Shown here: positions 37,542 through 46,370 of the stretch, piece by piece
Layout: every line of letters begins with the position of its first letter
How positions within the stretch are numbered: the stretch's first letter is position 1
Assembly (NCBI GenBank): GCA_016794035.1
Contig: JAEUHS010000059.1
Span: forward strand, 1-64,000
Origin: Planctomycetota bacterium
Lineage (GTDB): Bacteria; Planctomycetota; UBA1135; UBA2386
Direction of reading: 5' to 3'
DNA length: 64,000 bases
The notes under the pieces: generated by a model
The model's database searches: none
What the model was told of the DNA's origin: nothing
What the model saw: only the letters and a program-made list of their open reading frames with translations
Translations under genes and position numbers: made by a program

Positions 37542-38885
37542 GTGAGCATCCTGCGCGATCCCGTCCACGGCGACATCGAACTCACGCGCGACGAACTGCG
37601 CCTCGTCGACACCAGCGAGTTCCAGCGCCTGCGCGGCATCAAGCAGCTCGGCAGCGCCAGCCTGGTGTATCCGGGCGCCGTGCACACCCGCTTCGAGCAC
37701 TCGATCGGCACGCTGCACGTCTGTGACCAGCTGCTCGACGCCTGCAACAAGAACGCGGCGCGCGATCCGGCCGGCTGCCATCGTGTGAGCGACGAAGAGC
37801 GGCGCGTGCTGCGCGCGGCGGCGCTGCTGCACGACGTCACGCACGTTCCGTACGGGCACAACATCGAGGACCAGACCGGCCTGCTGCCGCGGCACGACGA
37901 ACCGGCCCGCTTCCAGGCCGTGCTCGGCGACACCGAGCTCGGCGCCGAACTCGACCGCCAGGGCCTGCGGCAGGACGTGCTCGCGGTGCTGACCGGCGCC
38001 GGCCGCGCGGTGCCGGCGTTCTGGCGCCAGGTCGTCAGCGACACCATCGACGCCGACCTGCTCGACTACCTGCGCCGCGACGCGCACTTCACCGGCCTCG
38101 AGCTGCGCTACGACCGCCGCGTCGTCGACTACTTCCGCGTCGCGCGCGGCGACGGCCGCATGTTCGTCGACTGCGAGAAGAACGGCATGCTGCGCGAGGA
38201 CATCGTCTCCGAGCTGCTGCGCGTGCTCGAGTGCCGCTACCACTTCAGCGAACGCGTCTACTACCACCACGCCAAGGTCGCCGCCGGCGCGCTGCTGGCG
38301 CGCATGGTCGAACTGGCGTTGCGCAGCGCGGCGCTCGGCGCCGACGAGCTGCAGCAGCTGACCGACGAGTCGCTGGTGGTGCGGCTGGCGCAGCTCGACC
38401 TCGGCGAGGCCGCCGCCACCGAACGGCTGCGCCGCTTCGTCGCGCGCTTCCGCCGCCGGTCGCTGCCCAAGCGCGTGCTGGTGCTGCCGTACTACCAGAA
38501 CCAGGCCGTGCAGGACGAGCTGCTGCAGCGCTACTTCGAGCCGGGCCGGCCCGAGCCGCGCTTTCAGTGGGAGGCGGCGATGGAGCAGGCGGCGCAGCAG
38601 GCGTTCGGCCAGCCGGTCGACGTGATCCTCTACTGCCCGAAGCGCCGCATGCAGTTGAAGGAGGCGAAGACGCTGGTGCGCTTCCCGGGCGAGGGCGAGC
38701 GCACGCTGCCGCTCGATGCCTTCACCGACCAGATCCCGCGCCTGCGCGACCTCGCCGAGAGCTACCCGCGCATGTGGAAGCTGTACGTGTTCACGTCGGC
38801 CGAGGACAGGGCCGTGCGCCGCAAGCTGCAGGCCATGTGTCTGGCCACGCTGCCCGCCGGGTGCCGCAACGCGCTGGTGCTGTGA
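37542..38885 (+). CDS. HD-domain phosphohydrolase (dNTPase/SAMHD1-like)
   Basis: A 447-residue cytosolic HD-superfamily hydrolase. Metal ligands are visible as H53 (TRFEHSIG), H97-D98 (LLHDVTHVPYGH, with H101 and H106 also conserved) and a late aspartate in SDTIDADLLDYLRRD (about 170). The start DPVHGDIELTRDE and QRLRGIKQLGS is the SAMHD1/YdhJ-type opening, a group with triphosphohydrolase members acting on dNTPs. The GTG start is supported by the promoter 9 bp upstream. Its stop overlaps the next start (TGATG), so it is coupled to the barrel and HMA genes. Substrate unproven. Confidence 0.85.
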   Translation: MSILRDPVHGDIELTRDELRLVDTSEFQRLRGIKQLGSASLVYPGAVHTRFEHSIGTLHVCDQLLDACNKNAARDPAGCHRVSDEERRVLRAAALLHDVTHVPYGHNIEDQTGLLPRHDEPARFQAVLGDTELGAELDRQGLRQDVLAVLTGAGRAVPAFWRQVVSDTIDADLLDYLRRDAHFTGLELRYDRRVVDYFRVARGDGRMFVDCEKNGMLREDIVSELLRVLECRYHFSERVYYHHAKVAAGALLARMVELALRSAALGADELQQLTDESLVVRLAQLDLGEAAATERLRRFVARFRRRSLPKRVLVLPYYQNQAVQDELLQRYFEPGRPEPRFQWEAAMEQAAQQAFGQPVDVILYCPKRRMQLKEAKTLVRFPGEGERTLPLDAFTDQIPRLRDLAESYPRMWKLYVFTSAEDRAVRRKLQAMCLATLPAGCRNALVL

Positions 38886-39727
38886 TGTGGCGTTGCGCCC
38901 TGCCGTGCGTCCTGCTGCCGTCGCTCGCGGCGCAGTTCTACACCACGGACGCCGGCGTGCAGTCGCCGGACCTGCCGTCGCTGCGCGAACGCATCGAGTG
39001 GCGTTCGCGCCGCGACGCCGAGCAGTGGATCGCCGAGACCCGCCTGGTCTGGTCGCCGCGGCGCGAGCTGGAGCTCGACCTGACCGTGCCGCTGGTCGCG
39101 CGCCACCTCGACGGCGTCGGCGGTCGTTCGGCGCAGCAGGGTCTCGGCGATGTCGTCACCTCGGGCAAGCTGGCCCTGGTGCGCGACGACGGCGTGATGC
39201 AGAGCGACCGGCTGTCCCTGCTGCTCGACGTGTCGTTGCCGACCGGCGACGACGATGGCACCGTCGATGGGCTGGACCTCGGTCCGCGCGCGGCGCTCGG
39301 CCTCGGCACCGCCGGCGTCGGCGCCGGCATCGGCGGCACGATCGTGCGCGACCGTCACCGGGCGGCCGCCGCGGTGCGCTGGTGGCAGTTCGCGCGCGAC
39401 GGCGGCTTCGAGCCGGGCCCGATGCTCGCGCTCGACGTCGCGTGGTGGTACCGCCTGACGCCGGCGGTGTTCGCACCGCACGGCGACGAGGTCGAACTGC
39501 GGCTGGTGGTCGAGGCGCTGGCGCGCTGGGTTGCCGACGACCGCCGCGGCGGCAACGATGTCGGCAACGGTGGCCACGAGCTGCGACTCGTCGTCGGGCT
39601 GCAGGCCAACCTGACGCCGTCCTTCGCCCTCGAACTCGGCGCCGTGTTGCCGCTGACCGAGACCACGTCGTCGCCGTTCGGCGACGAGCGGCTCGGTGGC
39701 CTGTTCTCCTGCCGGATGTCCTTCTGA
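38885..39727 (+). CDS. Outer-membrane beta-barrel protein (MetA-pathway/transporter-like)
   Basis: A 280-residue exported protein: short signal peptide (about 1-16, ALPCVLLPSLAAQ), then alternating amphipathic strands with PTGDDDGTVDGLDLGPRAAL, the pattern of the putative phenol-degradation MetA / transporter-type barrel family, ending with an aromatic residue (CRMSF). This suggests an outer-membrane channel of about 12-14 strands. Its ATG overlaps the HD gene's stop and its own stop overlaps the ATG of the heavy-metal-domain lipoprotein (both TGATG). Cargo unknown; the neighbour suggests a metal or metalloid. Confidence 0.65.
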   Translation: MWRCALPCVLLPSLAAQFYTTDAGVQSPDLPSLRERIEWRSRRDAEQWIAETRLVWSPRRELELDLTVPLVARHLDGVGGRSAQQGLGDVVTSGKLALVRDDGVMQSDRLSLLLDVSLPTGDDDGTVDGLDLGPRAALGLGTAGVGAGIGGTIVRDRHRAAAAVRWWQFARDGGFEPGPMLALDVAWWYRLTPAVFAPHGDEVELRLVVEALARWVADDRRGGNDVGNGGHELRLVVGLQANLTPSFALELGAVLPLTETTSSPFGDERLGGLFSCRMSF

Positions 39728-40212
39728 TGCACGACCGCCTCCCGTTGACGACGTTCCTGCTGCTCGCCGCCTGCCAGACGACACTGCCGCCCGCCCGCGC
39801 GACGCCGGCCGGCCACGGCCTGCAGCGCGCCTGGATCGTCGCGTTCGGCCTCGAGTGACTGCCGTGTGCGAAGGCCGTGGCCGACGGCCTGCGGCGCCTG
39901 GATGGCGTCGCCGATGTGGAGGTGGATCTGCAGGCGAACCTCTGTCTGGTGACGCCGCAGGCGGATCGACTGCCGGACCTCGCGGGCCTGCCTCTGGCGG
40001 TGCGTGAGGCCGGCTTTCGCGCCGGTGGACTCTGGATCGAAGCGCGTGGCACCGTGTCCAGGCAGGCCGGTGGCGGCGGTCGGTTCACGATCGACGGCAC
40101 CGACGTCGCGCTGTCGTTCGCGGGTGCCGCCGACGGGCCCGCGACCGTGACCGGTCGTGTCGAGTTCGGCGCGACGCCGGCGCTGGTGGCCGACTCGCCG
40201 CCGCAGCGCTAA
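39727..40212 (+). CDS. Probable selenoprotein: HMA-domain lipoprotein with UGA at the first CxxC position
   Basis: Reading through the in-frame TGA at 39856-39858 gives one 161-residue protein. It has a lipoprotein signal with lipobox LLAAC (C16), a short linker, then a heavy-metal-associated domain: VAFGLE, residue 44 = TGA, LPC (C47), AKAVADGLRRLDGV and VEVDLQANLCLVTP, which is beta-alpha-beta HMA in every respect except that the first Cys of the metal-binding CxxC is UGA. A beta-rich C-terminal part of about 60 residues follows. A hairpin with bacterial SECIS geometry lies 14-32 nt after the TGA. A downstream GTG (39877) would lack the first strand and metal loop, so an independent short gene is unlikely. 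The alternative is a Cys-to-stop mutation. Confidence 0.7.
39856..39890 (+). promoter_or_regulatory. Candidate bacterial SECIS element
   Basis: After TGA 39856-39858, AGGCCGT (39872-39878) pairs perfectly with ACGGCCT (39884-39890) around the 5-nt loop GGCCG. The loop starts 21 nt after the UGA and its first two bases are G, meeting the published rules for bacterial SECIS (stem 4-16 bp, loop 3-14 nt, G among first two loop bases, UGA-loop spacing 16-37 nt). Confidence 0.6.
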
Positions 40213-45554: not shown

Positions 45555-46370
45555 ATGAAGAGGGGCGGGGCGTCCGGATCCAGCGAGCAGGGCTTCACGC
45601 TGCTCGAGCTGATGATCGTCGTCTCGATCCTCGCGATCATCGCCGGCATCGGCGTGCCGCAGTACGTGTCCGCGCTGCGCATCGCCCGGGTCGGCAAGGC
45701 CAAGCACGAACTGGTGACGATCTCGCACGCGATCGAGGCCTACGCGGCGAGCAACGAGGGGCAGCTGCCGCTGACGCTGTACCAGGTCGGGTTCGGCGGC
45801 AAGAACGATCCGTGGGGAGTACCCTACTGCTACCTGAACTACGGCGACGGCACCGGCGACGGTCTGCAGTGGGCGGTCGAAGCGGGCCTGGTCGATCCTT
45901 CGGCCGTCAAGGGCATGGACAGCGGTGGCGGCGGTGGGGGCGGTGGCGGCGGTGGGGGCGGCGGTGGCGGCGGCGCGCTGCTCGGCGGCAAGCGCGGCGG
46001 CTTCCTGTTGCCGCCTGCGTGGGCCGTGCCGCAGGATCCTGTCGTGCTGGGCCGAACGGGCGCCAATGCCGCGGCGACGGCGACCGCCGACAGCGTGCTC
46101 GGCACGCTGACGCGCGACGTGCTGTCGAACGAACGCGAGGCGCTGGTCAGCGGCATCGCCGCCAGCGGCGGGTTCCGGATGTTCACCGGCGTGGCGACCG
46201 AGACCACGCGCCGGCGCGATCGCTACATGTTCCCGCTGAACACCGACTACGACCTGTTCAGCCTCGGTCCGAACGGGCGCACCAGCGTCTCGCTGGGCGA
46301 GTCGATGGGGCAGGACGACGTCATCCGCGCCAACAACGGCGGCTTCTTCGGCACCGCTGCGGACTACTGA
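45555..46370 (+). CDS. GspG-like major pseudopilin with a poly-glycine insert
   Basis: A 271-residue protein with prepilin site EQG/FTLLELMIVVSI and helix (about 13-36), then the GspG-type start SALRIARVGKAKHELVTISH and DPWGVPYCYLNYGDG. A run of 17 glycines (about 124-140) followed by a second Gly-rich stretch splits the C-terminal domain and would be a flexible insertion. Type II secretion pseudopilins are normally about 140 residues, so the protein is enlarged. Start ATG 45555 is 139 bp after the tRNA; it probably leads an operon with the HAMP protein and kinase. Confidence 0.8.
   Translation: MKRGGASGSSEQGFTLLELMIVVSILAIIAGIGVPQYVSALRIARVGKAKHELVTISHAIEAYAASNEGQLPLTLYQVGFGGKNDPWGVPYCYLNYGDGTGDGLQWAVEAGLVDPSAVKGMDSGGGGGGGGGGGGGGGGGALLGGKRGGFLLPPAWAVPQDPVVLGRTGANAAATATADSVLGTLTRDVLSNEREALVSGIAASGGFRMFTGVATETTRRRDRYMFPLNTDYDLFSLGPNGRTSVSLGESMGQDDVIRANNGGFFGTAADY
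45924..45974. repeat. GGN-codon tract encoding 17 glycines
   Basis: An 18-bp unit (45924-45941) is exactly repeated at 45942-45959, followed by a partial GGC/GGT run. Length variation in steps of three would change the glycine linker without shifting the frame. Confidence 0.9.

Follow-up and report, generated by a model that had tools for sequence, protein, structure and literature searches.

Selenocysteine (Sec) is already known from small metal-binding proteins with the HMA fold. A 2026 review that counts 119 selenoprotein families or subfamilies (PMC13188914) includes in its Table 1 the family NF041115, a mercuric transport protein and a cation ATPase with Sec. NF041115 is listed there as 'Metal-binding protein (putative mercuric reductase)' with a UxxU motif and two Sec residues; the same table lists no HMA lipoprotein, and the main text uses none of the words HMA, lipoprotein and Planctomycet. 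A Sec form of MerP, with two sequences, was reported in 2008 (PMC2398784), and NCBIfam holds both NF041115 (UxxU metal-binding) and MerT_CopZ_Se. Sec-containing HMA proteins are therefore not new as such (NF041115, and MerP in ocean metagenomes). Here we analyse a stretch of 64,000 nucleotides from a Planctomycetota bacterium (assembly GCA_016794035.1, contig JAEUHS010000059.1, positions 1 to 64,000 of the forward strand, hereafter the window), which harbors at 39727-40212 a gene for a predicted HMA lipoprotein with an in-frame UGA in its metal loop. This is almost certainly a genuine selenoprotein gene, with Sec decoding predicted, and we favour, at a probability of about two in three, a role for its product as an outer-membrane lipoprotein that would bind a soft metal through its HMA domain and exchange it with a beta-barrel partner. 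The initial annotation of the window had held that no such family was described; this was too broad for the Sec-containing HMA-type loop, which is found in NF041115, MerP and the MerT/CopZ fusion, but no description of the lipoprotein-plus-barrel form was found. Likewise, no paper on a Sec HMA lipoprotein was found in the literature searched, a coverage outside which most subscription journals and preprints lie.

The reading frame across the UGA

The gene and its two loop codons are located as follows.

39727..40212, plus strand: predicted selenocysteine lipoprotein coding sequence, 161 residues through one read-through UGA, start ATG at 39727, stop TAA at 40210-40212
39856..39858, plus strand: in-frame TGA, predicted Sec44, the only in-frame TGA of the frame 39727-40212
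39865..39867, plus strand: TGT for Cys47, the corresponding codon being TGA in three UxxU genes of the same taxonomic family

Translation through the TGA gives the metal loop U44-L-P-C47, as had been read from the sequence initially. With table 11, conventional open reading frame (ORF) calling yields a 380-codon ORF, which shares this frame and terminates at the TGA, and a 111-codon ORF with a GTG start at 39877. The residues on either side of the TGA align in a single frame with five homologues, and both sides are under purifying selection, as the ratio of nonsynonymous to synonymous substitution rates (dN/dS) is below 1 in two pairs. Between the relatives L032 and L033 it is 0.077/0.299 (0.26) upstream and 0.065/0.345 (0.19) downstream of the UGA, and between the window gene and L031 it is 0.426/1.034 (0.41) upstream and 0.407/0.845 (0.48) downstream. 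The proposal that the two halves belong to one frame is well supported by these data, and the sequence 3' of the UGA is not decayed in the relatives. A sequencing error behind the TGA was judged unlikely because the UGA recurs in the loop of 21 genomes.

Hairpins following the UGA

Two hairpins lie shortly 3' of the UGA.

39872..39890, plus strand: hairpin H1, predicted Sec insertion sequence (SECIS), 7 pairs, loop GGCCG, the loop lying 21-25 nucleotides past the UGA
39893..39909, plus strand: hairpin H2, possibly the SECIS of the second UGA of the relatives, 6 pairs, loop TGGAT

They were compared in a gap-free alignment of 54 bases from the first loop codon in 22 loci, where H1 occupies columns 17-35 and H2 columns 38-54. 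Paired cells make up 89.5% of the two stems, against 78.9 after shuffling, the observed value being reached by none of 500 shuffles. The same holds for the number of cells changed on both sides of a stem (31 versus 10.4, 0/500) and for the covariation score (0.363 versus 0.188, 0/500), and pairs with a double change number 8 versus 4.6 (5/500). Sliding the stems by 1 to 3 columns reduces the pairing to 29-49% of cells, and RNAalifold recovers the same two hairpins de novo. One visible reason for the conservation of the stem by paired changes is a codon swap, since proteins with KAVxDGL and those with KGVxDAL exchange GCC..GGC for GGC..GCC, the amino acids following the stem. In 14 Cys HMA loci the two hairpins are weaker or missing. 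H1 energies are -7.1 to -14.3 kcal/mol in the UGA loci (22 loci, median -13.1) versus 0 to -8.3 kcal/mol (median -2.5) in these Cys loci (Mann-Whitney 4e-7). Nulls built from synonymous codons give a combined 1.6e-10 for the UGA loci, which are related and hence not independent, and 0.45 for the Cys loci. A SECIS-type hairpin shortly 3' of the UGA is thus present at the level of the family, and H1 is predicted to be the SECIS element.

Some observations weigh against this assignment. The number of further pair types (18 versus 15.7 in shuffled alignments, reached in 52/500) is the weak one of the five measures, and the H1 ranges touch, as the Cys loci L054 (-8.3) and L090 (-7.8) are as low as the weakest UGA loci. 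The 14 Cys loci include only two full-length homologues (L052 and L063), the rest being other HMA proteins, and H1 is out of register in L051 and L035. Taken alone, the window sequence has a folding energy that is ordinary for its high G+C (z -0.96, p 0.17, synonymous codons), and for this reason the case for a SECIS rests on the family.

Relatives and loop types

A first search with the source protein against 101 genomes, including the source genome (G000), matched 9 of them, and a wider search of 392 genomes of the phylum with a profile of six homologues (A3) matched 208, many through ordinary HMA proteins. The A3 profile returned 30 loci, of which 20 were translated, four were already-known homologues (L009, L039-L041) and six were left out (L057, L061, L062, L064, L065 and L066). 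Fourteen weaker TGA-bearing rows among the matches listed were also translated. Five of these have the UGA in the loop, three have a longer UxxxC loop (L086, L093 and L094, not counted below), and the remaining six (L085, L087-L090 and L092) have a TGA outside the loop that is probably a genuine stop. The loop of L014 is unreadable, as the contig ends before it. Altogether, at least 22 loci in 21 genomes, the window included, harbor a UGA at one or both of the two loop positions, with 16 UxxU loops, three UxxC (the window, L034 and L051) and three CxxU (L035, L058 and L091). Across the 20 aligned full-length proteins (A6), positions 44 and 47 are Sec or Cys in all 20 and G108 is invariant, consistent with the expectation that homologues would carry Cys or UGA in the loop, which the relatives do at both positions.

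According to the initial annotation, the UGA replaces the first Cys of a CxxC motif. A UGA does stand at the first loop position, but all three readable genes of the same taxonomic family (G010, G022 and G027) are UxxU. The window gene clusters with these three genes in the tree with support of 100/99, and differs from them at codon 47 (TGT versus TGA); the tree is unrooted, so that a loss of the second UGA in the line of the window and a gain in the sister genes are both compatible with it. Cys47 is also kept in P0005, a metagenome protein 61-62% identical to that of the window, which starts with MPCAKAV. Taken together, the four loop types cluster in the tree no better than chance (as low in 59/200 shuffles).

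Among 5.8 billion proteins, a six-row profile gave 11 matches, including the window's own piece P0003, from 7997 scored candidates of similar length. All 11 are 107-137 residues long and start in or after the loop, so that the fragmentation of the gene by automatic annotation, anticipated from the sequence, is indeed observed, and these proteins appear to form a family of likely selenoproteins truncated by gene callers. A 20-row profile gave 99 matches, including full-length CxxC proteins, some labelled Candidatus Scalindua. Three named matches indicate that the genomes are planctomycetes. They come from Pla163 (P0002, a UxxC form; the strain is Rohdeia mirabilis, a cultured planctomycete), a Planctomycetes bacterium (P0007) and Candidatus Scalindua sediminis (P0013, the L052 protein of genome G442). 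A profile scan of the genome contigs gave 24 pattern matches, none of which was confirmed as a relative, probably because its patterns require Cys where the genes have TGA.

Other HMA proteins with in-frame UGAs came to light in these searches. L081-L084 form a second HMA-lipoprotein subfamily, in which the loop reads UPIU or UPMU and the C-terminal part is longer, and the UxxxC loops of L086, L093 and L094 read QUGGAC, LUGLSC and TUPISC. A selA match was not found in G300, the genome of L093.

Selenocysteine machinery

The source genome (4.83 Mb in 133 contigs, 94% complete, 3.15% contamination) harbors selA, selB, selD and tRNA-Sec, the four genes whose presence the initial annotation had proposed to check. 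The scores are 473 bits for selA, 321 bits for selB (cut-off 242), 360 bits for selD and 74 bits for tRNA-Sec, which ARAGORN calls as tRNA-SeC(tca). The SelD protein is itself a Sec form with the motif GSGUAAKLPP, a known selenoprotein family (PMC13188914). In the 392-genome sample, selA is over the cut-off in 239 genomes, and all 19 UGA-form genomes included match it at E 5e-134 or better; for the first 15 of these, the probability of such a co-occurrence by chance is 5e-4, a figure that still contains shared ancestry. A tRNA-Sec over the cut-off was identified in 26 of 28 genomes examined, including 20 of the 21 UGA-form genomes. As for the CxxC genomes, G295 has both selA and tRNA-Sec, and neither a selA match nor a tRNA-Sec over the cut-off was found in G442. 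One result counts against the Sec reading, as no tRNA-Sec over the cut-off was found in G161, a UxxU genome with selA. In the search of 101 genomes, the two of the same genus lack the gene, which speaks against the explanation favoured here as a whole. The UGA within a conserved reading frame, the genes for Sec decoding and the hairpins kept in the family make it very likely that the UGA is read as Sec.

Protein architecture

Three elements were recognized in the 161-residue protein.

39763..39774, plus strand: lipobox-like LAA-C16, preceded by a short hydrophobic stretch and predicted to be a lipoprotein signal, recognized by eye
39817..40050, plus strand: HMA domain, residues 31-108, from Pfam PF00403, the AlphaFold 2 (AF2) model and Foldseek
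40018..40209, plus strand: C-terminal five-stranded beta domain, OB-like, residues 98-161, from AF2 and weak fold matches

A Cys is present at the lipobox place in 16 of the 20 A6 rows, the LAAC motif having been judged by eye. With Cys written at position 44, PF00403 matches residues 40-96 with 27.7 bits (3.7e-6, cut-off 24.8), confirming the HMA domain recognized around the TGA by the first reading; a six-frame search that starts after the UGA gives 24.3 bits, just below the cut-off. The AF2 model of the protein, built with 37 sequences, has a mean predicted local distance difference test (pLDDT) of 86.2 and displays the strand and helix order of an HMA domain followed by beta strands. Its first Foldseek match is MerP (1osd, E 1.8e-4), and MerP, plant HMA7 and CopZ are the best structural matches, with copper-ATPase domains also on top. 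The last 64 residues modelled alone give five strands (mean pLDDT 86.3) whose matches are weak and mostly OB folds (best E 0.17, none below 0.001). This OB-like domain would likely dock or space the HMA head.

Upstream barrel gene and neighbourhood

The lipoprotein gene overlaps an upstream gene, whose TGA stop runs into the ATG of the lipoprotein gene (TGATG).

38885..39727, plus strand: predicted outer-membrane beta-barrel gene, PF13557 22.7 bits, cut-off 22

In 18 of 25 loci the lipoprotein gene is preceded by a barrel gene of this family that ends at a distance of -1 to 92 bases, and a 19th locus gives a weak case; three of the counted loci (the window, L031 and L033) are themselves seeds of the barrel profile. 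The barrel match of L077 is weak (9e-5, among the 27 ORFs of the file searched). The barrel-like ORF of L035 is unrelated, and no upstream barrel was found in L074 or L079, the region of L079 being A+T-rich with only two ORFs picked and its neighbourhood hardly covered. The upstream sequence of L082, L083 and L084 is too short for the barrel test; in L084, inspection by eye shows what looks like the end of a barrel gene.

Metal-type regulators or pumps occur in 4 of the 13 regions of relatives (L068, L069, L071 and L080). L068 has a MerR family gene and a DF-family domain fused to a MerC-like part, both below their cut-offs; L069 a MerR family gene, a copper-type P-ATPase over the cut-off and a CusA-type pump under it; L071 an ArsR family gene and a copper-type P-ATPase over the cut-off; and L080, a Cys form, a MerR family gene. 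An RND pump lies near L070, its substrate not being resolved by the match.

Some genes of these regions deserve mention on their own. The fused gene of L068 (2611-3369, minus strand) matches the NCBIfam DF family (seleno)protein with 45 bits (cut-off 70) and the MerC-like model with 29.9 bits (cut-off 170). A predicted lipoprotein adjoining the UxxU lipoprotein of L069 (4869-5600, minus strand, G143) has an HMA-like loop TUMTU with two UGAs, then a thioredoxin-like part with WCGPC, recognized by eye. Another predicted lipoprotein with two in-frame UGAs (GUTU) lies between the ArsR family gene and the copper-type P-ATPase in L071 (8770-9290, plus strand, G125). On another contig of the source genome, a CopZ-like HMA frame lies beside a 799-codon HMA frame of CopA size. 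Finally, an ORF at 45555-46370 of the window, directly after a tRNA-Leu gene, resembles a type IV pilin and contains a long glycine run.

Possible role and alternative explanations

In the role that we favour, the lipoprotein would be anchored in the outer membrane and face the periplasm, its HMA domain would hold a soft metal ion (possibly Cu+, Ag+ or Hg2+) between Sec44 and Cys47, and the metal would be passed to or from the beta-barrel encoded by the overlapping upstream gene. At the cell envelope, the pair would likely handle metals resembling copper or mercury. Several observations speak against this role: the PF13557 match of the barrel is barely above the cut-off and names no metal, the MerR-type regulators score below the cut-offs of every metal-specific model, so that their metal is unnamed, and no metal genes were recognized in 8 of the 13 regions of relatives, nor beside the window pair or L034, not every neighbour having been scanned in either case.

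The main alternative is a redox protein in which the U-x-x-C motif would form and break a selenenylsulfide, reducing periplasmic disulfides or peroxides, with the HMA fold as a scaffold. Redox functions are assumed for most known selenoproteins (PMC13188914), the lipoprotein adjoining that of L069 fuses a UGA-bearing HMA-like part to a thioredoxin-like part, and thioredoxin-like genes lie near L077 (Pfam) and L080 (weak, under the cut-off). The HMA fold, whose best matches include MerP and CopZ, and the metal-type genes near the four relatives argue in the other direction, and the Sec/Cys swap is compatible with either role, so that we consider a redox function unlikely, although the strongest competitor. 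It is still less probable that the protein is an envelope sensor that signals metal or oxidant at U44/C47 through the OB-like domain, similarly to the E. coli outer-membrane lipoprotein NlpE (CutF), as numerous unrelated OB folds match as well as the NlpE type does, and the partner conserved beside the gene is a barrel, not a signalling gene.

A different kind of explanation would take the UGA as a true stop and the downstream part as a separate or decaying gene, in line with the 111-residue ORF in the ORF list and with the best 11 database matches, which are such pieces. This was rejected on the basis of the paired changes in the hairpins and the purifying selection found both before and after the UGA; moreover, the UGA lies in the same loop in 22 loci, others having Cys codons there, and full-length CxxC homologues exist. 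The chance that it is right appears negligible.

Beyond the metal hand-over favoured for the window gene, we tentatively suggest, with less than even confidence, that planctomycetes carry an unannotated, selenium-based metal module of the outer membrane, composed of a barrel and a two-domain HMA lipoprotein that would hold a soft metal with one or two Sec. The double-Sec genes would have tandem SECIS elements, H1 serving the first UGA and H2 the second, nine bases apart. This division of labour is suggested because, among the 22 loci, H1 is weakest in the three CxxU loci, where the first UGA is missing, a post hoc observation on three cases. The family points to a use of Sec in binding metal at the outer membrane, and not in redox catalysis. 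With Sec and Cys exchanged at either loop position of a single fold, its members may provide a natural series on what selenium gives to a metal site, and the double-UGA genes a test case for the decoding of two closely spaced Sec codons.

Comparison with known systems

Assignment of the protein to NF041115, MerP or CopZ was rejected on scores, despite similarities to each. Like NF041115, the family has a small metal-binding domain and, in most members, a UxxU loop, and all 20 A6 members match this model at E 0.01 or better (best 2.4e-10). However, it is a 74-position model, and the window protein reaches 16.5 bits against a cut-off of 95, adding to it a predicted lipoprotein signal, the OB-like domain and the adjoining barrel gene. 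MerP (TIGR02052) is similarly exported, has an HMA domain whose metal loop contains two binding residues and is, as noted, the first structural match, whereas the window protein scores 21.6 bits against a cut-off of 92.55, and each solved MerP chain consists of one HMA domain of 72 residues rather than of the two domains of this predicted lipoprotein. The CopZ models (NF047957 and NF033795) share the HMA fold and the loop and give the best NCBIfam score (34 bits), which does not reach the cut-off of 85 of NF047957; CopZ is cytosolic. The full-length CxxC homologues, which include Candidatus Scalindua proteins such as P0013, also combine a hydrophobic N-terminus, an HMA domain and a C-terminal domain in one protein, but have Cys at both loop positions and, in L052 and L063, no lipobox Cys. 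In all likelihood, what is new here, within the known Sec-containing HMA metal-binding proteins, is the combination of a predicted lipoprotein, an added OB-like domain and an upstream barrel.
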